Positions 380 through 26,066 of a stretch of DNA of 26,066 bases are shown piece by piece; within the stretch, counting starts at the first letter, position 1; each line of letters starts with the position of its first letter. Source of the DNA: a virus. A program made the translations under genes and the position numbers. The notes beneath the pieces are model-generated. The model made no database searches. It saw only the letters and a program-made list of their open reading frames with translations, and was not told the DNA's origin. The DNA lies in the IMG/VR virus record IMGVR_UViG_3300014838_000072, positions 1 to 26,066 of that record; one strand, 5' to 3'.

Positions 380-811
380 ATGATTACAATAGAACGCTAC
401 CATGACTTTTCTTATGGCCACCGTGTGGTCGGCCACGAAGGGAAGTGCGCCGGGCTTCATGGGCACAACGGACGCGTGACGTTCACCTGCGTCGCCGAGA
501 AGCTGGACGAGCTTGGGCGGATCGTCGATTTCAGCGTTCTAAAGTCCAAGCTCTGCCAGTGGATAGAGGACAACTGGGACCACAAGATGCTGCTGTGGAG
601 GAAGGACCCGGTGCACGCTATTCTCGGACGTACCGATAACGACAGCATCGTGAACAGTATCCAGCCGGTGTCCTTTAACCCGACCGCCGAGAACCTGGCG
701 CACTATCTTCTCACTACTGTTGCGCCACTGCGGATGCAGGGCACCGGTATCACTGTTATCGCTGTCAAGTTTGAAGAGACGAGGAAATGTTCCGCCGTTG
801 CAACCCTATAA
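380..811 (+). CDS. queD: 6-carboxy-5,6,7,8-tetrahydropterin synthase (QueD)
   Basis: 143 residues, close to the usual size of QueD. The family converts 7,8-dihydroneopterin triphosphate to 6-carboxytetrahydropterin, the second step toward preQ0. Visible active-site elements are H14 in FSYGH, C23 in GKC and the LHGHN motif with H27 and H29; the three histidines are the expected zinc ligands and C23 the expected catalytic cysteine. D67-H68 (WDHKML), the conserved TAENLA stretch near 103 and the glutamates of FEETRK near 131 are also present. The ATG at 380 has a purine-rich RBS (aggcgga) just upstream. It sits with queE 12 bases downstream. In phages these genes usually supply 7-deazaguanines for DNA modification, sometimes for tRNA queuosine; the partners needed to choose (FolE, QueC, DpdA) are not in the window. 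Confidence 0.9.
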   Translation: MITIERYHDFSYGHRVVGHEGKCAGLHGHNGRVTFTCVAEKLDELGRIVDFSVLKSKLCQWIEDNWDHKMLLWRKDPVHAILGRTDNDSIVNSIQPVSFNPTAENLAHYLLTTVAPLRMQGTGITVIAVKFEETRKCSAVATL

Positions 812-6512: not shown

Positions 6513-6608
6513 ATGAGACTGAATCTAGACCTTGCGCGTAAGCATGCTCAGGACTTCGATCTGGTGATCGACAGGAAGAAAGAGACGATGAAAGGGATAA
6601 AGATATGA
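6513..6608 (+). CDS. 31-codon mini-ORF carrying the LDLARKHAQDF motif
   Basis: An ATG directly follows the UvrD-like stop codon and opens a 31-codon frame ending TGA at 6606-6608, which overlaps the next gene's ATG at 6605. Residues 5-15 read LDLARKHAQDFDL. The same motif occurs in the N-terminal domain of the Ala-rich proteins encoded at 7352 (ALDFARKHAQDF) and 7951 (LTLDLARKHAQDFDF). At the DNA level 6525-6560 matches 8053-8088 in 35 of 36 bases. It could be a detached remnant of that gene family, or a short coupling ORF. No function is assigned. Confidence 0.45.
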   Translation: MRLNLDLARKHAQDFDLVIDRKKETMKGIKI

Positions 6609-6912: not shown

Positions 6913-7302
6913 ATGACCGACTCGCACGTTCCCCTTAACCGCACCGCATATGAGGCTGCTCGCGTCATATATGATGCCGCCAGGGCCTCCACCGGTGCCA
7001 CCTACCGCGCCGCCGTGGCCCGCGCCGACGACGCATACGCGGCCACCATGGCCTCCATCGACGACGCATACGCGACCGCTGTGGCCTCCGCCGCCACCTG
7101 CGTCGCCCATTCCGACGCCATCTTTGTCTGCGCTGCTGCCCGAGCCGCCGACATCTGCGCCTCCGCCGCCGCCCTCGCCGCTTACGAAGTCACCCTGACC
7201 TCCATCTACGCCGCATACAATGCCGGCATGGCCTCCGCCTATGCCGCCTACGCCGCATACGATGTCGACACGATCCCCGCCGACGTCATAAAATCCTCTT
7301 GA
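6913..7302 (+). CDS. Ala-rich hendecad-repeat protein 1
   Basis: 129 residues, very Ala-rich, with recurrent Tyr. From about residue 12 onward the sequence falls into roughly 11-residue units such as RADDAYAATMA and SIDDAYATAVA, consistent with a long amphipathic or right-handed coiled-coil helix. It lacks the N-terminal LARKHAQDF domain of the two paralogues that follow. Alanine is encoded mostly by GCC. No recognised family and no catalytic motif. It has its own near-consensus promoter but only a weak RBS (GGA about 12 bases upstream). Its last codons lie in the second copy of a 29-bp direct repeat, so it looks like a cassette inserted or duplicated between repeats. Confidence 0.6.
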   Translation: MTDSHVPLNRTAYEAARVIYDAARASTGATYRAAVARADDAYAATMASIDDAYATAVASAATCVAHSDAIFVCAAARAADICASAAALAAYEVTLTSIYAAYNAGMASAYAAYAAYDVDTIPADVIKSS

Positions 7303-11800: not shown

Positions 11801-14095
11801 TTACTTGAACTCCATCTGCCCGGACCCTGCGATCCAGTCGCAGGGGTTGCATCCCGACGCCCCCACAACGCCGATGTAGATGCCACCATGCGTCGTGTCG
11901 GCGCCCACAGTCGGGGTAGCAACACTAGCGAGCGCGCCAATATGTTTCAGTTCTGTAATGGTAGCCGCAACAAGCGGCGTCGTAGAGGCAGCATTGGCCC
12001 CTTGCCCAAGGACTAAACCAGTCACGCTCCATTCCGCAAAATCCGTAATGTTGGCGCGACTTTTCGCCATGATGACAAAAGGAGGAAAGGCCGTTATCTG
12101 TTGGGCTACCATGTTCATTACATTATTAGAGGATGCCGCGGCTCCGGTGCCCGTGAGCTGCGTCATTGTCGTGCCATCTGTCGTCGTGCCTATTAAATAC
12201 ATCGCGAAGCGGTTCATAGCGTCGCCAATGGACACGAATTGATTTCCAGCGTAGCACATCCCGAGAACATTATGATCATAGGCACGGTTGCCCCAACAAG
12301 CATTGTTTCCTGCGCCGACTGATACCTGGTTGCCGAAAGCAAATGAGTTAGTTCCGGATGCCGCTGAACTCGTGCCGCCGGATGCCGAGTTTGACCCGGC
12401 TTGAGTATTGCTGGTGCCCGAGATATTCCCCGAAGAGGATGCTGTAGAAATAGGAATATATGTGGTATCATTTGTCGGCGCCACCGTATAGGGAATTCTT
12501 GTCGTGACGCCAAATGCCGCCGTCGCCCAATATGTTGAACCGCATAGTGTGCCATCATCATAGGCTAAATAGTTTACTTGCCCCTGACCAACGAAGTAGT
12601 CACCGGTAAATCCCTCTCCACAGGTATTTGACAAGTAAATGTTCGGAAACATCCCCGCCTGTATTATGCTGTTATTGGTAAATCTAGCCCCGATAAAAGC
12701 CTGCGGAGACACGACTCCTTGACTCTGGATAAGAATGCCGAATTTTAGGTTGCTATCTATAGACCCCCCGATAAACGAGGATGCGTCCGATCCGGCGGGC
12801 GACATGCTAATGCCGATATAATTGTCAAACACCCTCGTGCTATCGAAGGTGTTTGCTGCTGTCGGCACGTTAACCCCTACCACAATTGCTTGAATAGTGC
12901 CGCCAGAGGTAAATGACCCGGCAAACTGGGAACCTGCCAGATCAATGTTATAGGTATCTACAACCGTGCCTTGCCATACGCCAACCGCATTTGGCACTCC
13001 ACCAGAATTGAGCACCAGAACTTGCGCCGCTGTCCCCGTCACGCCAAAGTTGTGCGCTTGAGTCGTGGTAACGCGGATCAATCCTGAGCCATTGTTGGCA
13101 ACGCCGGATATTCCGAACAGCGGCACCACTTCACCCCCAGACGTATAGGTGCCAGTGAAAGTCGAGCTGTTCTCAGTAAAGTGCGTGCCATCGATGACAG
13201 TAACGGTAGGCATGCCATTCGCTGCGGTTACACCGCCAACCTGCGATACCTCGGCCTGCATGCCCGTCGATAAGCCGTGCGACGTCGCGGTGGTGATCTC
13301 GATCAGGCCACCGCCGCTGGTGACATTCGAAACATTAGCGCCAAGAAGGGTCGAGCCCATGATCTGGCTACTGTTGAAAAACCAGTCACCAGAATTGAGA
13401 GTGACACCATTCCGGAATGGGTGGATCATATTAGATGAATTAAATTGGCCCGCGCTGCAATTTGTTCCGATCCACAGGTTGTCACGCCCTGCATTCTTAA
13501 GAACAACACGAGAAAAATTGAAAGACCCTGCGTATCCGGCCCCGCCATTGTTCGGGCACTGCACAACGTCACTGCCGTGATATTGCCCGTCGAATGTAAT
13601 ATCCTCAAAACTCGGTTCGGCCTGATCGCCGTATCCGGGGCTGCCGAGGATCGTGAGCAGCGGGCCGGTTGCCCCGGACGACAAGAGAAAACGGCTCAAA
13701 CCAGATCCAGCGCCTCGGAAGTGCCCAGCGAACTCAGTAGACTGAACGGTGTAGGTAAGCCCATCTACCTGATAGGTGCCGCTCGGAACAAAGCATGCGT
13801 GAGGCGTCCATGGCGCCAGCCCCTCGCAAGCGTTGATAAAATTCTGAGCCGCAACCTGGCTGTCCGTCGCTCCGGTCGGATCGGCGCCAAAGTCGTCAAT
13901 CAGGTTCAACTCACGGCTAACCCGAGCACCGAGCGAACTGGCCACGCTCGCACCGGTCGCAGTGACAAGCGCGCCAGAAGCCGTGGCGCCGTTGAGCGTC
14001 GTAGCTGGAATAAACGGCGCAGGCGCCAGCTGCGCCCACACAGTGCCAGCCGGCGCCAGAAGCCCAAGAACAAGAACGAGAAAAAGTTTGCGCAT
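11801..14095 (-). CDS. Tailspike 2: pectate-lyase-like beta-helix protein with signal peptide
   Basis: About 764 residues from the ATG at 14095. That start is chosen because GGAG lies 6 bases upstream; in-frame ATGs at 14098 and 14107 are alternatives. MRKLFLVLVLGLLAPAGTVWA is a typical Sec signal peptide. NLIDDFGADPTGATDSQVAAQNFINAC is the entry of the Pectate_lyase_3-type right-handed beta helix. Two tandem copies of a small beta domain (12881-13336; TTATSHGLSTG, NGMPTVTVIDGTHF and a diverged second copy) resemble the E1-FCCH-like domain of phage proteins. Repeats like GTNSFAFGNQVSVGAGNN resemble trimeric adhesin head repeats. The C-terminal module ADTTHGGIYIGVVGASG matches that of tailspike 1. 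Expected role: receptor binding and possibly polysaccharide cleavage; catalytic residues were not identified. Confidence 0.78.
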   Translation of the reverse strand: MRKLFLVLVLGLLAPAGTVWAQLAPAPFIPATTLNGATASGALVTATGASVASSLGARVSRELNLIDDFGADPTGATDSQVAAQNFINACEGLAPWTPHACFVPSGTYQVDGLTYTVQSTEFAGHFRGAGSGLSRFLLSSGATGPLLTILGSPGYGDQAEPSFEDITFDGQYHGSDVVQCPNNGGAGYAGSFNFSRVVLKNAGRDNLWIGTNCSAGQFNSSNMIHPFRNGVTLNSGDWFFNSSQIMGSTLLGANVSNVTSGGGLIEITTATSHGLSTGMQAEVSQVGGVTAANGMPTVTVIDGTHFTENSSTFTGTYTSGGEVVPLFGISGVANNGSGLIRVTTTQAHNFGVTGTAAQVLVLNSGGVPNAVGVWQGTVVDTYNIDLAGSQFAGSFTSGGTIQAIVVGVNVPTAANTFDSTRVFDNYIGISMSPAGSDASSFIGGSIDSNLKFGILIQSQGVVSPQAFIGARFTNNSIIQAGMFPNIYLSNTCGEGFTGDYFVGQGQVNYLAYDDGTLCGSTYWATAAFGVTTRIPYTVAPTNDTTYIPISTASSSGNISGTSNTQAGSNSASGGTSSAASGTNSFAFGNQVSVGAGNNACWGNRAYDHNVLGMCYAGNQFVSIGDAMNRFAMYLIGTTTDGTTMTQLTGTGAAASSNNVMNMVAQQITAFPPFVIMAKSRANITDFAEWSVTGLVLGQGANAASTTPLVAATITELKHIGALASVATPTVGADTTHGGIYIGVVGASGCNPCDWIAGSGQMEFK
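12881..13336 (-). other. Tandem E1-FCCH-like beta domains in tailspike 2
   Basis: Two consecutive domains of about 73-77 residues, each with a G-x-I-x-(I/V)-T-T-x-x-x-H-x-(L/F) start, a middle valine-rich strand and an end F-x-G-(T/S)-(Y/F)-T-S-G-G. The repeated ending TSGG is the clearest marker. They look like the small phage domain annotated as ubiquitin-activating E1 FCCH-like. Confidence 0.6.
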
Positions 14096-14137: not shown

Positions 14138-16462
14138 CTATTGGCCTTCAGTCGATTGCGGCACCGCTCGCCACGTCAGCGTGTAGCCGGCCACCCCGGT
14201 AACACCGATGTCCACGCCGCCGTTGGTCGTGTCGGCGACCGCCGTAACCGATGTTGCGGCGAGTCCCGCACCGGATAGAGTGGTGTCACACTGCGGCATG
14301 GTAATCGTGGGGCTGCCGATGCGAGCGGTCAGCGATGCGCTCGAACCGCGCTTCATCAGCAAGTTCTCGACGAACCACTCGCAGGCATAGTTGCCAGAGG
14401 AATTGTATGCCAACACAACGATGCGCCCGAACGCATAAGCCCCGTTGTTCGGCAGATTGAGGATGTTGATGGTGTTGGGGGCGCCGCCGTCCGCCGTGAG
14501 CGTCGCCGAAGCCGCGCCTGTCGTGGAGGCACGCAGCGGTTGCCAACAAATCTGGTAATCGCCTGCCGAGGCAATCAATCCGTTCGCGTAGCACAATCTT
14601 CCATAATCCGCGCGATCTGTGGTCTGGCCGCCGAGAGCAGCCGATCTCTCGCCACTGACGGAGACGGAGTTGCCAATCGCCAGAGCCTCGAGACCCGCCG
14701 CGTAGGCGCTGGTGCCGATCGCCACGGCGCCGATGTTCGATGCGGTCGAATCGCATCCGGCGGTAAATGAGTTCTGGCCGGAAGCGACCTGGATCGCATT
14801 CGTCCGGGCGCATGTCTGCACGTCCACCGCGTTGGCGCCGAGCTGGTTGCCGGTCGCCGTGGTGTTCTGGTGCGGGTTCAGCGCGAACGAGCCATTATCT
14901 CCATAATAAGGGCCAAATCCGCGTTCGGGGATGCCGAGCCGCACGACGCCGGCCTGGGTCGGCGCGTCCGCCGTTACCAGCGGTGTGCTGCCAAGATAGC
15001 CGCCCTCATAGGTAAGATTTTGTCCCGATGCGACATAGAGTTGCGCCGAAGACCCGCCATCGGTCTTGTTGCCGACCAGCGCCAGGCCGCCGGCGGTGAC
15101 ACTGACGTGATTCAGGAAATTACCCCATTCCTGACAATTCGATGCTGTATGTGTAATACCGGCCGTATTGACCAGAATGCCGGTGTGCTGCGCCGATGCC
15201 TTGCAATCGGTCAGGCTCGCGTTGGTGGTCGTGCCCTCGAGGTCGATGCCGACGGCCCCCCAGTCGCCCTGGGGCGCGTCATTGTCCGCGCCGATACCGT
15301 GCAGCACATTGTGGTTGGAATTGGTTATCTGAAAACCAGTCTGGTAACCATAGCTGAAATCATCCTCGAAAATACCGTGATCATCGTTCTGAAGAACCTG
15401 GTAGGCGATGCCGTTGCGCAGGTTTGTTGTCGAATTGACCGTGCCCCCTGTTCCGGTTCCGGAGCCAGAGGAGACCGGTATTTGGATTGTCGTGGAGTTG
15501 ATGACGGTGACCGGCCAGTAGCCATTGAGTTGTGTTTGAGAGTTTCCGGCCACGATAACCGCCTGGCCGGTCGTATAGCCGTGCGGCGAGGCGGTGACGA
15601 TCTGCCAATAACCGCCGACAATCGAGGCCGAGCTGATCGCCACCCTGATATCGGAGACCGATCCGCCGACCGTCAGGAACGGCCAGAAGTGAGCACGGGC
15701 GACGTGGCTGATGTCGAACGACTGCTGGATGCGAATGCCGTTGGTGTCGTCGCCGGAAACGTCGATCACCTTGAGCCTGTCGTTGCCGTTGCTGTCGATG
15801 GCGCGGTTGAAGCCAAGAACGAGAAGGTCCTTCAGTGTCACGTCATGCGCGTTGACCGATCCGTTCCCTGGACCGACAGTAATCCCGGTTCCCGCCATGT
15901 TGGCAATCTGGGTATAGGCGTCGCTGTCGGTGACGACGAGGATGATACCCTGGCGGCGCACAATCAGTCCGTCCAGGGTCGAACCCTGATTCATCTGGAT
16001 AGTGTAGCCGGACGCGACGATGAGCGACCCTGGCGCTGACGTGTAATTGTCGCCGACGATGCGCCCTGGCCGTCCCCAGGGACCCTGCACGGTCAGTCCT
16101 GTTGGGACGACCAGATTGGCCGAGCCGATCAGGTACTGGTCGGTTCCGATGACAAATCGCTGCGCCCCGGCCGCCGCTGCGATGTTCATCCAGGACTGCA
16201 ACGCAGCGGTCGCGTCGGTTGTCCCGGTGGGATCGGCGCCGCTGTCCCGAGCATAATATACGTCCGTGGCCCGCGCCGCGAGCGTCCGCGCGGTCGTGCC
16301 GCCCATGGCGGTGACGGTCGCGGCGGAGACATTGGTGCCGCTGAGCGAACCGCCCGTGATCGTTCCGCCCAGTGGACCGCCTGAAATGGGAACGGGGGTC
16401 GGCGCCTGACCGGCTGCAACCAGCGGCCAGAGCATCAACGCAATAACTATGGTCTTGTTCAT
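14138..16462 (-). CDS. Tailspike 1: pectate-lyase-like beta-helix protein with signal peptide
   Basis: 774 residues from the ATG at 16462, which overlaps the upstream stop as ATGA and follows GGCAGG; the longer frame from 16480 is less likely. MNKTIVIALMLWPLVAAGQA is a Sec-type signal peptide. DSGADPTGTTDATAALQSW begins a Pectate_lyase_3-like beta helix. The helix is interrupted at 15431-15634 by an E1-FCCH-like beta domain (SPHGYTTGQAVIVAG, NGYWPVTVINSTTIQI). The distal part has adhesin-head-like repeats (GAVAIGTSAYAAGLEALAIGNS) and ends in ADTTNGGVDIGVTGVAG, homologous to tailspike 2. Likely a trimeric receptor-binding or depolymerase spike at the baseplate periphery. The two spikes share layout but differ in the central region, as expected for host-range determinants. 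Confidence 0.8.
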   Translation of the reverse strand: MNKTIVIALMLWPLVAAGQAPTPVPISGGPLGGTITGGSLSGTNVSAATVTAMGGTTARTLAARATDVYYARDSGADPTGTTDATAALQSWMNIAAAAGAQRFVIGTDQYLIGSANLVVPTGLTVQGPWGRPGRIVGDNYTSAPGSLIVASGYTIQMNQGSTLDGLIVRRQGIILVVTDSDAYTQIANMAGTGITVGPGNGSVNAHDVTLKDLLVLGFNRAIDSNGNDRLKVIDVSGDDTNGIRIQQSFDISHVARAHFWPFLTVGGSVSDIRVAISSASIVGGYWQIVTASPHGYTTGQAVIVAGNSQTQLNGYWPVTVINSTTIQIPVSSGSGTGTGGTVNSTTNLRNGIAYQVLQNDDHGIFEDDFSYGYQTGFQITNSNHNVLHGIGADNDAPQGDWGAVGIDLEGTTTNASLTDCKASAQHTGILVNTAGITHTASNCQEWGNFLNHVSVTAGGLALVGNKTDGGSSAQLYVASGQNLTYEGGYLGSTPLVTADAPTQAGVVRLGIPERGFGPYYGDNGSFALNPHQNTTATGNQLGANAVDVQTCARTNAIQVASGQNSFTAGCDSTASNIGAVAIGTSAYAAGLEALAIGNSVSVSGERSAALGGQTTDRADYGRLCYANGLIASAGDYQICWQPLRASTTGAASATLTADGGAPNTINILNLPNNGAYAFGRIVVLAYNSSGNYACEWFVENLLMKRGSSASLTARIGSPTITMPQCDTTLSGAGLAATSVTAVADTTNGGVDIGVTGVAGYTLTWRAVPQSTEGQ

Positions 16463-17175
16463 CCTGCCCTGGCCCACCACTGTGTAGATGCGGAATTTGT
16501 CGAAAACGCTACACCACCGCCACCTGCGACAATCACGAAAGGCTGATTGACGCCGAGCGCGTTGATCTGTGCCCCGACCGGGGGAAGGATTGGCGCGTTG
16601 TTCACCAGGTCCGCGTCCTGCACAAAGATCGTGCCGACAACTCCAGTTGGAAGGATGGCGCTTGTCCCTGGCGGCGCGCGGGCAATGACGTTGGTCTGCG
16701 CGGCGATTAACAGCGAAGGAGCGGTCAGCACCAGGCCGGTCGCGGGAGGACCGGCGAGTTGTTGCGGGAAGATGTAGGGCAGTTCATTGTTCGTCCATGT
16801 GACCGGAGTGCCGTAACCAGGAACGGGCGCTGGCGGAAGCGGGTAAACGGGCGGGAGCGCGTCAGCACAGCTCACCAGCTGCTTGACAGCGTACTGCCAA
16901 ATACGGCCAGACACGCCAATAATAGTGATCTGGTATCGGTAGACGCGGCCTGGCACGCCTCCTGTAAACTGCGCGGTCAGCACATACCCGTCTACACTGA
17001 GACTGAGCGCTACCCGCTCGCCCATCCCACTCGGCTCAATGGCAAGCAAGGCTGATGCGGCGGCATCACCCCGAGCCTGGACCGCATAGAGGAAATCGGT
17101 GTAGTCTAGATTAGCGCCAGGCAGCGCGGGGGGCCACCACTTGTCGCCGGGAGGGCCAACAGATGCGCACGACAT
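16459..17175 (-). CDS. Tail fibre-associated protein
   Basis: 238 residues. Residues about 25-105 (DYTDFLYAVQARGD, SVDGYVLTAQFTGGVPGRVYRYQI, IIGVSGRIWQYAVKQLVS) look like a small beta domain found in phage fibre or adaptor proteins. A Pro-rich linker (PPVYPLPPAPVPGYGTP) and a C-terminal beta-rich part (PILPPVGAQINALGVNQPFVIVAGGG) follow. No signal peptide. It lies between a glycine-rich fibre gene and tailspike 1 and overlaps the latter by ATGA, so a role in fibre attachment or as a short fibre is inferred. No family assigned with certainty. Confidence 0.6.
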   Translation of the reverse strand: MSCASVGPPGDKWWPPALPGANLDYTDFLYAVQARGDAAASALLAIEPSGMGERVALSLSVDGYVLTAQFTGGVPGRVYRYQITIIGVSGRIWQYAVKQLVSCADALPPVYPLPPAPVPGYGTPVTWTNNELPYIFPQQLAGPPATGLVLTAPSLLIAAQTNVIARAPPGTSAILPTGVVGTIFVQDADLVNNAPILPPVGAQINALGVNQPFVIVAGGGGVAFSTNSASTQWWARAG

Positions 17176-17179
17176 AGGG

Positions 17180-17239
17180 CTATGTCCCGGCCGGGAAAGC
17201 GGGCTTGGTCGGAAGCTTGGTAATTGCCCATGTGCTCAT
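17180..17239 (-). CDS. 19-codon mini-ORF, possible remnant of a tail gene start
   Basis: The ATG at 17239 overlaps the TGA of the glycine-rich fibre gene (ATGA) and encodes MSTWAITKLPTKPAFPAGT before TAG at 17180-17182. The next gene starts 4 bases later. It fills the only gap in this part of the operon. It may be a truncated gene start or serve translational coupling; too short to assign. Confidence 0.3.
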   Translation of the reverse strand: MSTWAITKLPTKPAFPAGT

Positions 17240-18300
17240 GCGGACCTCCACTCGATGATGATGGCGCCGCTCGCGCCGGTGCCCCCCGCCGAAGCGGTAC
17301 TGGAGTAGGTGCCGCCGGCGCCACCACCATACCCTACCGCGTTTGCCGGCACGCCTCCACCGGAGGTTCCCCGGCCACCACCGCCCAGTGGACTGGCGCC
17401 GCCCGCACCGCCGTAAGTGTTCGTGGTTGGCGACCCATCGGTGCCGTAACTTCCGGAACTGTTAAAATCGCCACCTACGCCCGTTCCAGGCGCGCCGCCC
17501 CCTGGCGCCGCACTGAAAACGCTACCCTCGCCGCCAGTGGCGGAGACATAGCTGCCAAACGACGTCGTGCCGCCTTTGACGCCACTGAAGCCGGATGCTC
17601 CTGCGATCCCGCCAGCTCCTACTATGCAAGTAATCAATGCACCTGCCGTGAGCCCAGTGATCAGCGCTTCGGCATACCCTCCCCCGCCGCCGCCCCCGGT
17701 TGCCTGCGTGCTCGTGCCGCCGGCCGAACCCCCGCCGCCGCCGACCAGGCGCACAAACGCGGCCGTGCATCCAACCGGCACAGTCGGCGAAGGGGCACCG
17801 GGTGTGGTGAGGACCGTCCTGGAAGGAGCCGGGAGAAGTGCTCTTAGCGCCTCGGCTGCCTCAGCCCGCGCAGTTTCGACAGCAATGGCTACGGTCATCT
17901 GCGCTAAAGCCACCGCCTCGGACGCTGTCGTTGCATTGGCAACGTTGAAGACCTGCGTGGCCGATCCCGCCAGCAATGCGAAGCGACTCTCGATGTCCTC
18001 AACGATGCCAGCGGTGATCTGGTTGTTAACAAGATCACCCGCGTTCCAGGACAGCGCGGTCGTGCCCTCCTGTGCACGAGTGATCGTGACCACGTCGCCG
18101 CTGCGGGCAGTACAGTAGACGATCTCGGTCGTCGCCGAATTGCTCGCGCTGATCAGCGTCAACGGGAAATACTGACCTGCTCCGGGGCTGGGAAATAGTG
18201 CCCCTGCGCCCGGATACAGCGTTGCTGATGTGCCGCTAGAAGCGAGTGCAAGCGCCAGCACCGTGCCAGCATTATTCGACAGAAGAACGGGGATGGTCAT
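17236..18300 (-). CDS. Tail fibre with C-terminal glycine-rich receptor-binding domain
   Basis: 354 residues. The N-terminal 100 residues (LLSNNAGTVLALALASSGTSATL, FPLTLISASNSATTEIVYCTARSGDVVTITRAQEGT) are a common tail-fibre N-terminal module that anchors to the virion. A helical segment with VAIAVETARAEAAEALRAL follows. The last 180 residues are extremely Gly/Ser-rich (GGGGGGGYAEALITGL, GGAGGASPLGGGGRG), like the polyglycine-sandwich receptor-recognition domains of T-even gp38-type adhesins and many prophage fibres. Without signal peptide. Probably the primary adhesin or one of several. The polyglycine region is a hotspot for recombination and slippage. Confidence 0.72.
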   Translation of the reverse strand: MTIPVLLSNNAGTVLALALASSGTSATLYPGAGALFPSPGAGQYFPLTLISASNSATTEIVYCTARSGDVVTITRAQEGTTALSWNAGDLVNNQITAGIVEDIESRFALLAGSATQVFNVANATTASEAVALAQMTVAIAVETARAEAAEALRALLPAPSRTVLTTPGAPSPTVPVGCTAAFVRLVGGGGGSAGGTSTQATGGGGGGGYAEALITGLTAGALITCIVGAGGIAGASGFSGVKGGTTSFGSYVSATGGEGSVFSAAPGGGAPGTGVGGDFNSSGSYGTDGSPTTNTYGGAGGASPLGGGGRGTSGGGVPANAVGYGGGAGGTYSSTASAGGTGASGAIIIEWRSA

Positions 18301-22054: not shown

Positions 22055-22413
22055 ACGGGGATCGGTCCTGTCAGCGCATATCCGCTCTTTGTTGTGACGT
22101 TGATAGCATAAGTCGGGGCAGGCTGGTTCGCAATTTGTGCTTGCTTGGCGAGCAGCAGCGCAGCGAAGAAGGGCGCGAACTGTTGCTGGGCGCGGTTGAT
22201 GTAGTAATCGGGCTGGATTTGCTGGATAACCGACTGCTCCGCAGGGATGCCGTAGTTGGCGAAGAAGGGAGACTCGCCCAAGTTGAGCTTGAGCGTCTGG
22301 ATAAGAGTTGTCAGGTAGACGCCATCGTTGAAGCCGTTAGCATCGGTCGAGACCTCAACCCAGGTCCCGCCCTTGCCGTTTGAGTCTTGGTTTATGCGGC
22401 CCCAGGTCCTCAT
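22051..22413 (-). CDS. Baseplate wedge-like protein (gp25/W position)
   Basis: 120 residues. LTTLIQTLKLNLGESPFFANYGIPAEQSVIQQI is typical of small baseplate proteins located just before J, functionally like P2 W / T4 gp25, which trigger sheath assembly. The highly specific sheath-interacting EPR motif of gp25 was not seen, so the assignment rests on size, position and the GESPFFANYG segment. Both ends overlap neighbours by 4 bases (ATGA). Confidence 0.62.
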   Translation of the reverse strand: MRTWGRINQDSNGKGGTWVEVSTDANGFNDGVYLTTLIQTLKLNLGESPFFANYGIPAEQSVIQQIQPDYYINRAQQQFAPFFAALLLAKQAQIANQPAPTYAINVTTKSGYALTGPIPV

Positions 22414-23036
22414 GGGTTTGCCGGCCCGGATGTCGGAACTTCGACATCGCCATTACTATCGGCGCCCTGAGCGTGAACGTGCGTGCCGAAGACGATACCA
22501 TCCATAATGATCCCCGCAGAGGATATGACCAGCTCGTGGCCCCCCGCGCTGAACGTGATCTTGCCGGGGGCCAACTTGAGGAACGTCGTCTGGCCCTGGT
22601 CCATCAGTGTAACGCCGCCAGGGCCATACAGGGTTAGAATGTTCCCATCTACAGCAAACCAGCCGTTATTGCCAATGGGCTGGAACACCAATGCGGTCAG
22701 GTTGCCCGGAGAGGTAAGCGTGGCGACGCCGCCTCCGATGCCGCTCATGCCGCCGAGGTAGGCATCAGCCGCTTGTGCGACGCCCTTACACCCAACTTGT
22801 ATCGGATAACGAATATATTCCGACCCCGCCACTGGAATCGTCACATTTGGCAAAGAAACGGGGGGCCACCCCGGTGGTGAGGTGACTTGAAATGCCACTT
22901 GCACAATCGAGCCTTTGACCGAAACCACCTGACACGGCAACGATTTTCCGGTCTGTGCAATCTGATCCGCAGCCTTGGCCCGTGCGAAACGGTTAAGACT
23001 CAGGCCAGGTGGCGTCTTTTGTGCATTGTCAGCCAT
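22410..23036 (-). CDS. Baseplate spike / puncturing device (gpV/gp138-like)
   Basis: 208 residues. The N-terminal half (QVVSVKGSIVQVAFQV, VSLPNVTIPVAGSEYIRYPIQVGCKGVAQAADAYLGG) looks like the OB-fold domain of gp138/gpV-type spikes. The C-terminal part is a short beta-helix with GVTLMDQGQTTFLKLAPGKITFSAGGHELVISSAGI repeats. FGTHVHAQG (183-191) holds an HxH pair, H186 and H188, as in spike tips that bind a metal ion (Fe in P2 gpV and phi92 gp138). No RBS precedes the ATG at 23036; instead the start lies inside the 3' end of a 24-codon ORF created by a 159-bp repeat, suggesting reinitiation-coupled translation. Confidence 0.8.
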   Translation of the reverse strand: MADNAQKTPPGLSLNRFARAKAADQIAQTGKSLPCQVVSVKGSIVQVAFQVTSPPGWPPVSLPNVTIPVAGSEYIRYPIQVGCKGVAQAADAYLGGMSGIGGGVATLTSPGNLTALVFQPIGNNGWFAVDGNILTLYGPGGVTLMDQGQTTFLKLAPGKITFSAGGHELVISSAGIIMDGIVFGTHVHAQGADSNGDVEVPTSGPANP

Positions 23037-23103
23037 CGGTTAGCGCCGCTTGAAACTGGAAAGGCTCTGTTGCTGTAGGGGAAAATGGTGTGACGGTGCT
23101 CAT
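23029..23103 (-). pseudogene. Truncated 24-codon copy of the baseplate-plug gene
   Basis: From ATG 23103 (overlapping the hub stop as ATGA) the frame encodes the first 24 residues of the plug-like protein (MSTVTPFSPTATEPFQFQAA, LTDG) identically, then ends at TGA 23029-23031. The homologous intact gene starts at 24559 and continues for 95 residues. The copy lies within the 159-bp direct repeat, and its stop overlaps the spike gene start by 8 bases. It is a duplication remnant that may still be translated to couple the hub and spike genes. Confidence 0.8.
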
Positions 23104-23190
23104 GCCAGCCCGAGCGAGTTGCCGCCCCCAAGGTATGGCATCGGCGGCGGAGAGGGGGCTGTATTGGTTCCCGCCGTCGAGCGGCCAGAT
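23032..23190 (-). repeat. 159-bp direct repeat, copy A
   Basis: 158 of 159 bases are identical to 24488-24646; the single mismatch is at 23107 (24563). The offset is 1456 bp. Copy A contains the 3' end of the hub gene, the truncated plug start and the spike gene's start codon. The match ends sharply at both sides. Confidence 0.95.
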
Positions 23191-24275
23191 AGCTCGGGGA
23201 ATATCTGAAGCGTTGTATTCCAGCTCGCTGCGTCGCCCTGTCGAAAGTTCGCGTGATGCTGGCCATTATTCACTCGGTAGTTTCCGCTGAATGAAGACGA
23301 ATTATCTGGTGATTTGTACATCCGTTGAGCAAATGCCGCCGATCCACTGCTGATCGTCCACTGGTCTGGCGGAATCGAGATCACGTCCCCCATTTTGATA
23401 TCAGCCCGCAAGACCAGCTTGAGCGAGATCGTCGCGTCATCTTGCCAGGTTGGCTGGCCGATCATATCCTGGAATGCAATTTGTTTTACACCGCCTGCTG
23501 GCGCAGAAACGGAGCCATCAAAAACACGAATGGTCGAACCATTAACCGCCATCGTCACACCAAGGTAAGAACCCCCTATAATTGACCTGGATAGTTTATT
23601 GATGTGATCGGCAAACTGTCCTAGCGACTGGTAAACTCCAGTAGCATCGAAGTTCTGCACCAGCTTTTCGCTAATCTCTATAACTTGTGCATAACCTGGC
23701 ATCGCTATTGAAAGTGCGTTGCTAATCGCAGAGGAAAGCGGCTGCGATGCTTTCCACGAGAATGAGACGCCGACAGCCCTGGTCGGGGCGCCACTAAGAG
23801 CTGATGTCAGGTTAAGGGCGGGCGCAAGAGTAGACGTTGACGGGGATGAAGCCGGTCGCATTGGGGTCATAGCCGGGAAAAAGTTGATGTCGATGGTCTG
23901 GTCTGTATTTATCCAGTTACCGTATGCTTGGAAGATCGTGCCCTGCATGATCAACCCGGCCTGAGCTGGATTAGCGAGCGGCAGCCCTTTCGACATGCCG
24001 GCTGAGACCGAAATACTTAGACCGTTCAAGTCCGCAGCGTTACCGATATCCTGAAGTCCAAGCCCCCAGATGCGCAGCCACGACGAATTACTGCTCGGAT
24101 CAGTTAAGTTACCGAATGGTATCTCGAACTCGACATTTAGCGCGCCTGGGTTAACGATGCCGGATATTGGATTCTGTGGCCCGGTCCGCAACAGCGACGT
24201 GAGCGGGACGCCCAGCGACTTGAACAAGAACGGAGTGCCGTCCGCCTTGGTAATGTCTATCCTGTAATATCTCAT
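23100..24275 (-). CDS. Baseplate hub-like protein
   Basis: 391 residues. The N-terminus (YYRIDITKADGTPFLFKSLG, IVNPGALNVEFEIPFGN, LRIWGLGLQDIGNAADLNGLSISVSAGM) and the late part (VKQIAFQDMIGQPTWQDDATISLKLVLRADIKMGDVISIPP) follow the pattern of phage baseplate hub proteins in simple contractile tails, which sit between tube and spike. Its last 28 residues (GRSTAGTNTAPSPPP, YLGGGNSLGLA) are the same as the end of the protein encoded at 24556 except for one Leu/Pro change, because of the 159-bp repeat. They follow a distinct domain ending and may replace the original C-terminus. It starts as ATGA overlap with the plug gene. Confidence 0.68.
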   Translation of the reverse strand: MRYYRIDITKADGTPFLFKSLGVPLTSLLRTGPQNPISGIVNPGALNVEFEIPFGNLTDPSSNSSWLRIWGLGLQDIGNAADLNGLSISVSAGMSKGLPLANPAQAGLIMQGTIFQAYGNWINTDQTIDINFFPAMTPMRPASSPSTSTLAPALNLTSALSGAPTRAVGVSFSWKASQPLSSAISNALSIAMPGYAQVIEISEKLVQNFDATGVYQSLGQFADHINKLSRSIIGGSYLGVTMAVNGSTIRVFDGSVSAPAGGVKQIAFQDMIGQPTWQDDATISLKLVLRADIKMGDVISIPPDQWTISSGSAAFAQRMYKSPDNSSSFSGNYRVNNGQHHANFRQGDAASWNTTLQIFPELSGRSTAGTNTAPSPPPMPYLGGGNSLGLA

Positions 24276-24559
24276 GGCGACGCCGTAAAGGTCTGCGTGT
24301 CCTCAGTGAATATCAGCGTCGATCCCGAGAAATAGCCTGCCACTAACGAGATGACGTAGCCGGGTGGCGAGGCAACCATTGGCGCATTGACGATTAAGTT
24401 TCCGCTCTGATCGGCAACCTGGATGTACCAACGCTGACCGAACGTGTTCCACAACACAACACAATTATAGGTTGCTGTCCCGAGAACGCCATCGGTTAGC
24501 GCCGCTTGAAACTGGAAAGGCTCTGTTGCTGTAGGGGAAAATGGTGTGACGGTGCTCAT
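24272..24559 (-). CDS. Baseplate plug-like protein (Pam3 gp18-like)
   Basis: 95 residues. FQFQAALTDGVLGTATYNCVVLWNTFGQRWYIQVADQSGNLIV and APMVASPPGYVISL resemble the small baseplate plug family (DUF6983-type; Pam3 gp18), which closes the central channel of simple myovirus baseplates: a beta protein with a W-N-x-x-G-x-x-WY-x-x-V core followed by a P-L-V turn. Overlaps both neighbours by 4 bases (ATGA). Its first 24 codons are duplicated at 23029-23103. Confidence in the family is moderate; as a real gene it is high. Confidence 0.72.
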   Translation of the reverse strand: MSTVTPFSPTATEPFQFQAALTDGVLGTATYNCVVLWNTFGQRWYIQVADQSGNLIVNAPMVASPPGYVISLVAGYFSGSTLIFTEDTQTFTASP

Positions 24560-24646
24560 GCCGGCCCGAGCGAGTTGCCGCCCCCAAGGTATGGCATCGG
24601 CGGCGGAGAGGGGGCTGTATTGGTTCCCGCCGTCGAGCGGCCAGAT
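24488..24646 (-). repeat. 159-bp direct repeat, copy B
   Basis: Partner of 23032-23190. Copy B contains the first 24 codons of the plug gene and the last codons of the upstream 24556-25317 gene, so the gene junction itself is what was duplicated. Confidence 0.95.
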
Positions 24647-25317
24647 GGAATCGAGCCGCCGGTCAAGCTGGAAGGCTGGCCAACAGAGGCGGGTGCGCCC
24701 GAATAGCTGGGCTGTCCGACGATCTGCGTACCATTGCTCAATTTCGACATCAGTGTATTCTGCGCTGCCTGCGCATCGTGCAGCGTGAGCAACGGCTTGC
24801 GGAAGTCAATCTGGTAGGCATTCTGCGCCTGCTTGCTCTCCGACGATGACACATCGACCATCCGAATACGCACCAAATCTGTGTAGATAAACTTGGGTGT
24901 AACGTAGCTGTAAGTGCCCCCGATCGAATCGTGCCGGTTCATTACAGAGACGAGCGCGGTCATGATCGCGGTCGATGCGGCATACCCCCCTGCATCGCGC
25001 ACCGGACATATCATCAGACAAGACACAACCAGCGGATTGGCAATGACCGCATTGCCCGCTACAGCCTGATTGGCGAAGGGATATTCGCCGATCACGTTCT
25101 CGCCGAGTGTGGCTCCGGGAAGCGGAATGAAGTTAGCGAAGTAGTCAGCCAGGTTGACCGGCCCCCCGCTCGACAGCAGCCCGGAAGGGAAACTGCTCGA
25201 CTCGGTGATTTGCGTAATCACCATCGTGCCGCCGAAGATGTCCTTAGCAATCCCGCCACAGAACACAATCGGGGCCAATTGATAGCTAAGAGCCCATTGA
25301 GCGGTTCCAGAGCTCAT
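24556..25317 (-). CDS. Baseplate/distal-tail protein, Dit-like candidate
   Basis: 253 residues. Pattern VIGEYPFANQAVAGNAVIANPLVVSCLMICPV, then TALVSVMNRHDSIGGTYSYVTPKFIYTDLVRIRMVDVSS and KQAQNAYQIDFRKPLLTL, is like Dit-type or baseplate ring proteins (a beta domain that joins the tail tube to the baseplate), and position after a lytic transglycosylase and before plug/hub genes fits. The last about 50 residues (SYSGAPASVGQPSSLTGGSIPSG, then the shared tail) are low complexity, Pro/Gly/Ser-rich. The C-terminal tail is repeated on the hub protein. The stop overlaps the plug start (ATGA). Confidence 0.58.
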   Translation of the reverse strand: MSSGTAQWALSYQLAPIVFCGGIAKDIFGGTMVITQITESSSFPSGLLSSGGPVNLADYFANFIPLPGATLGENVIGEYPFANQAVAGNAVIANPLVVSCLMICPVRDAGGYAASTAIMTALVSVMNRHDSIGGTYSYVTPKFIYTDLVRIRMVDVSSSESKQAQNAYQIDFRKPLLTLHDAQAAQNTLMSKLSNGTQIVGQPSYSGAPASVGQPSSLTGGSIPSGRSTAGTNTAPSPPPMPYLGGGNSLGPA

Positions 25318-25885: not shown

Positions 25886-26066
25886 CGGTGGTCCAGGCCG
25901 TCCCGCGCCAGGAAGCTGTCTATTGCCCGCATTCGGATTACCAACCCATCGACGATAGCGGCTGGTTTGCTGTAGATACGATTGGCGTTGAAACCCTGGA
26001 TCGGGCGGAACTGGAATGGGCTGATCAGGGTGAGCTTTGTTCCATTGGCGAATTGCCTCCTCCCGC
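25882..26066 (-). CDS. 3' end of an upstream tail gene (5' end outside window)
   Basis: On the minus strand the frame from the window edge to TGA at 25882-25884 is open and ends with KLTLISPFQFRPIQGFNANR and IRMRAIDSFLARDGL. The stop overlaps the transglycosylase ATG as ATGA, the arrangement used throughout this operon. About 60 residues are visible, with no recognisable domain. Probably another baseplate or tail protein. Confidence 0.55.
   Translation of the reverse strand, partial: GRRQFANGTKLTLISPFQFRPIQGFNANRIYSKPAAIVDGLVIRMRAIDSFLARDGLDHR

Follow-up and report, generated by a model that had tools for sequence, protein, structure and literature searches.

The minimal baseplates of phages Pam3 and XM1 contain a plug (gp18), a hub (gp19), and a spike (gp20) (PMC11633184). 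Phage T4 undergoes segmental duplication and deletion as well as UvsX-dependent minihomology recombination (PMC8262927, PMC9391042); its UvsX protein joins homologies of 3 to 4 nt, while classical recombination needs about 50 to 150 nt (PMC8262927). Repeats in bacterial genomes, such as the rRNA operons of Escherichia coli, are subject to gene conversion and concerted evolution (PMC8022953). All three systems bear on a locus in a 26,066-nucleotide stretch of viral DNA (IMG/VR record IMGVR_UViG_3300014838_000072; here called the window), in which plug, hub, and spike genes are adjacent in the order of the Pam3-like baseplates and two nearly identical 159-bp segments bracket the plug and hub (Table 1). 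The pair is real: a gene junction was duplicated in a single clade and its copies have undergone concerted evolution, which makes it a small-scale case of known phage genome evolution. In our preferred reading (probability of about 0.83), an ancestral junction would have been copied from the site of copy B to that of copy A and then repeatedly homogenized by homologous recombination.

Table 1. Features of the baseplate region, given as window positions in order of transcription
Feature	Position	Strand	Remarks
Baseplate-operon protein (gene 24556), 253 aa, phrog_7750 (no assigned function)	24556..25317	-	Residues 196-253 predicted disordered
Copy B of 159-bp repeat (donor)	24488..24646	-	Last 29 codons and stop of gene 24556, first 24 plug codons
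Baseplate plug, 95 aa, phrog_8737	24272..24559	-	Subthreshold match to Pam3_gp18
Baseplate hub, 391 aa, phrog_196	23100..24275	-	gp27/Mu gp44-like fold
Copy A of 159-bp repeat (recipient site, hub/spike junction)	23032..23190	-	Last 29 codons and stop of hub gene, then 24-codon plug stub
24-codon plug stub ORF	23029..23103	-	ATG overlaps hub stop (ATGA); TGA inside spike start (ATGGCTGA)
Central spike/puncturing protein, 208 aa	22410..23036	-	Start codon directly after copy A; PdC23 orthologue

An earlier note on this DNA had described the repeat, and remeasuring it returned the same values: 158 of the 159 bases are identical at a spacing of 1,456 bp. This identity is far above chance, no other pair within the window reaches it, and the lone mismatch is an A/G difference on the plus strand. 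The description of the repeated piece as a gene junction also held, with the 3' end of gene 24556 and the first plug codons found at copy B. As noted earlier, hub and gene-24556 protein end alike apart from one Leu/Pro difference; the shared C terminus, SGRSTAGTNTAPSPPPMPYLGGGNSLG(L/P)A, is 29 residues long, however, not 28 (28 are identical). The truncated plug gene reported for copy A is present as an ORF with the translation MSTVTPFSPTATEPFQFQAALTDG*, and its length and stop are conserved in a second species, L004 (7176-7250). Both stop/start overlaps are intact around the insert. Since the insert brings its own ATGA overlap and ends in a second one, the hub-to-spike translation relay is formally preserved, and it would then work across the stub. 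Inspection also bore out the remark that flanking frames would stay open if the copies recombined.

The order of upstream protein, plug, hub, and spike is that of Pam3, XM1, and Certevirus-type phages (e.g., PdC23), and the hub resembles the Pam3 baseplate chains and gp27/Mu gp44 in fold. The hub model (mean pLDDT of 82) matched gp27-type hubs, including those of phages E217, PhiTE, Mu, and Pam3. The predicted fold stops at residue 360; residues 361 to 391, which include the grafted disordered tail (363 to 391), have low pLDDT and no secondary structure. The model of the phrog_7750 protein, weak overall and of low confidence, is disordered in its last 58 residues as well, and a fold search with it gave weak matches only, to baseplate chains of phages E217 and Pa193. 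In these models the tail is thus a flexible appendage in both proteins. Unlike the window, the minimal-baseplate relatives have neither hub tail nor plug stub, and PdC23 and Chronis each have a hub gene whose stop codon overlaps the start of the spike gene. In Pantoea phage PdC23, the orthologue of the spike carries the annotation "puncturing protein." The upstream gene, which encodes a transglycosylase SLT domain, contains about 50 bp of spike-gene sequence in inverted orientation (window positions 25924 to 25977 versus 22647 to 22696; about 82% identical), which may be a further short ectopic copy in this genome; L004 differs in this region by indels.

Both copies were present in other contigs. 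L003, an IMG/VR contig from another sample, is 99.96% identical to the window over 4,861 bp, and L018 (GenBank accession no. PLUE01000003.1; a 44,109-bp contig of a metagenome-assembled genome [MAG]) is 99.97% identical over 8,890 bp; the few single nucleotide polymorphisms (SNPs) among the three are our grounds for assuming that they are independent. L018 covers nearly all of the window and a further ~18 kb, making it a near-complete version of the phage. L004 represents a second species and has both copies at the same two places as the window. Its copies are 88.8% alike over 143 bp, and its copy A, unlike that of the window, lacks 15 bp at the upstream boundary. Among annotated phages we found no relatives at the DNA level, only protein-level relatives with up to ~45% identity. 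A genome scan for hosts and prophages gave one match, a phage-like contig of 44 kb that had been assigned to a Gammaproteobacteria MAG, and among 296 scanned genomes from the order of that MAG, the MAG itself was the sole match.

To see how widely the duplication is distributed, we tested 120 junction pairs for direct repeats between the donor and hub/spike sites. A repeat of this kind occurred only at the loci of this clade (the window species and L004), and the remaining matches were few, short (16 to 35 bp), and unrelated. The copy A insert is absent from all surveyed relatives except L003, L018, and L004. The gap between hub and spike is 63 bp in the window versus mostly about -11 to +13 bp in other relatives, whose hubs end near the last beta-strand. 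The alignment of hub and gene-24556 homologues proposed in the earlier note likewise showed hubs outside the clade to be without the shared tail. In L005 the hub (55% identical in its best segment) has the C terminus ...NSWNTTIQATPAQAS, and hub stop and spike start overlap there (TGATGGC); the L005 homologue of gene 24556 ends ...TNTAPIIPVQSTPLPPLT. In L035 the gene-24556 homologue is 87% identical to that of the window and has the TNTAP tail, and the last hub residues are ...TVFQLRAEIG, the spike gene starting seven bases later. The TNTAP tail is thus found in the gene-24556 homologues of both relatives and in neither hub; both have a related C terminus and plug start at the copy B site and nothing similar after the hub. 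Because the tail is confined to gene 24556 in L005 and L035, the copy B site is the donor and the hub/spike junction the recipient. As read from these alignments, copying ran from B to A, and the duplication is restricted to this clade.

L035 differs from the window in a further respect: its flanking genes are 82 to 95% identical at the amino acid level, and the hub is only 50% identical. We considered the insert as a scar of a hub swap. The discordant tract (window positions about 24250 to 22750) covers the hub and the first half of the spike and so extends beyond the insert, which places the insert inside the exchanged block and makes a link with the swap tentative. Adjoining this tract, in the gap between spike and next gene (L035 positions 6923 to 7252; near window position 22410), L035 has a homing-endonuclease-like gene (HNH_3 plus AP2) that the window lacks. 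A homing-driven exchange of the hub in L035 is possible.

The near-identity of the copies does not mean that the duplication is young. The earlier note had taken it to imply a recent event or gene conversion: gene conversion accounts for it, but the duplication itself is not recent, since L004 has it too and is about 11% diverged from the window in nucleotide sequence (10.9% across flanking coding regions, with a dS of about 0.32 to 0.43). The orthologous positions and identical 3' junction place the duplication before the split of the two species. On the premise that it is older than this split, unhomogenized copies would be expected to differ at ~17 of 159 sites, and only 1 difference was observed (Poisson P of about 6e-7). 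At ten sites the two window copies agree with each other, the two L004 copies agree with each other, and the species differ. Polarized by the outgroup L035, five of these states arose in the window lineage and the other five in that of L004, each in both copies. Both window copies have lost 9 bp that L035 and the two L004 copies retain, and within the repeat there is no site at which the A copies of the two species agree against their B copies.

The copies therefore cluster by genome and not by position. Two nonallelic copies in one genome, a duplication older than the split, and derived states common to both copies together make up the pattern of concerted evolution, and the ten sites, the 9-bp loss, and the lack of any A-A/B-B site place homogenization in both lineages. 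Judged by these site patterns, concerted evolution in the two lineages is established, and it is most simply explained by homologous recombination (gene conversion). Homogenization, not duplication, is the recent part. At the single mismatch, the outgroups agree with copy B and L018 has the copy A base in both copies (24563), which suggests an A-to-B transfer. The copies in L018 are identical at 159 of 159 positions; short-read assembly is an alternative source of this pattern, since the reads may not span 159 bp. In the rRNA operons of E. coli, too, copies within a genome are more alike than orthologues between genomes; here, in contrast, a phage carries the repeat, which is a protein-coding gene junction of 159 bp present in only two copies and under no obvious selection for identity.

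In the ancestor of the window phage and L004, about 130 to 160 bp of the junction between gene 24556 and the plug would have been copied into the hub/spike junction. We infer that the downstream join formed at GATGGC, a microhomology found in plug codons 23 and 24 and in the hub-stop/spike-start overlap of L005; the motif is read from this more distant relative as a stand-in for the ancestral hub/spike junction of the window hub type. The route may have been a single template switch, or plug and hub may have been duplicated in tandem and then cut back by microhomology deletion; both predict the same two joins. The insert would have kept all frames: the hub acquired a disordered tail, and the plug stub came to bridge hub and spike, with a stop/start overlap at each end in place of the single one. 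Since then, the copies would have been homogenized repeatedly by gene conversion, most plausibly through the phage's own T4-like recombination proteins. These enzymes are candidates because of the gene content of L018, the contig on which they were located (the window itself is a fragment): it encodes UvsX-, SbcC-, SbcD-, and gp32-like proteins, phage-type helicases, and DNA polymerase A. The UvsX/SbcCD/gp32-like set is similar to that of T4, in which short homologies suffice for joins, and the T4 homology lengths make both the origin and the maintenance of a 159-bp repeat compatible with known chemistry. Phage genomes also gain and trim segments as proposed here. The T4 events were laboratory selected, whereas the event proposed here is deduced from sequences and has left a scar that is fixed in both species.

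The clustering of copies by genome would also arise if the window and L004 lineages had each copied their own gene-24556/plug junction, the window lineage very recently, so that no gene conversion is needed. The upstream boundary does differ between the two, and the 6-bp microhomology could have steered repeated events to the same 3' end. Yet the 3' junction and the stub are identical and the hub breakpoint nearly so in both lineages, and no other junction pair tested shows such an event; independent duplication is improbable, keeping some weight because only two species carry the repeat. In favor of an assembly artefact, suspected in the earlier note, 159 bp is close to short-read length, but the two copies occur in three contigs that differ by few SNPs, and the second species has copies ~11% different from each other, which effectively rules the artefact out. 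The other suggestion in that note, an origin by duplication or insertion, is borne out by copies at orthologous sites in the window species and L004 and their absence from the other relatives surveyed. The same note had proposed a removable baseplate cassette; plug and hub would be cut out by recombination between the direct repeats, much as happens at attachment or phase-variation sites. The repeat is long enough for homologous recombination and a deletion would leave flanking frames open, but this reading is highly improbable: plug and hub are core genes in essentially all relatives surveyed, in fixed order, the block has no recombinase, every contig with the repeat pattern has two copies, and none of the contigs found has the 1,456-bp deletion. 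By analogy with their role in Pam3-like baseplates, loss of plug and hub is expected to be lethal.

A pair of nearly identical copies separated by about 1.4 kb, one of them at a gene 3' end, with a single A/G mismatch on the plus strand, also recalls the template and variable repeats of a diversity-generating retroelement. We give this reading almost no credence, as there is one mismatch only, the repeat crosses a gene start, and no RVT_1 reverse transcriptase was found in the window or the 44-kb sister contig C54 (matches in the MAG lie on other contigs). Less remote, though still unlikely, is that the tail, the stub, or both are functional and selected, with homogenization maintaining them; the tail could be a common binding motif on two baseplate proteins, and the stub could tune hub-to-spike translation. 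Frames and both overlaps are intact in two species despite a flanking dS of about 0.3 to 0.4. Against this, the tail is of low complexity, is predicted to be disordered, and is not conserved across the phrog_7750 family, and the stub of L004 copy A has nonsynonymous changes (few, and confounded by conversion). Nor does the repeat appear to be an RNA element: it had no Rfam match and folded no better than shuffled sequences (z = +1.3). Tail and stub are probably functionally neutral. A broader version, in which the junction is kept for the shared tail, the translation-relaying stub, and a portable homologous linker flanking plug and hub that eases hub-allele exchange, seems doubtful.

The locus offers a polarized example, in a virus of bacteria, of a structural protein gaining a new C terminus without a break in a tightly overlapped operon; the route is to copy a complete stop/start junction to another gene boundary. 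A second lesson is that a phage duplicate as short as ~150 bp undergoes concerted evolution, so the near-identity of such repeats cannot be read as recency. No new class of mechanism and no new system is revealed.

Several features lie outside the baseplate region. Genes for PTPS (QueD-like), radical SAM, QueF-like, and GTP cyclohydrolase I proteins (window positions 380 to 811 and 824 to 1531; L027 positions 12293 to 12745; L028 positions 997 to 1659) likely form a phage 7-deazaguanine DNA modification pathway. L027 also has, at 15347 to 17860, an ORF in which a uracil-DNA-glycosylase superfamily domain forms the N-terminal part of a family A DNA polymerase. Between window positions 6518 and 8354, direct repeats of 33 bp form arrays in and around short unidentified ORFs, together with several repeated pieces of 35 to 43 bp, and the MAG contig differs from the window there by a rearrangement or indels and has two Ns.
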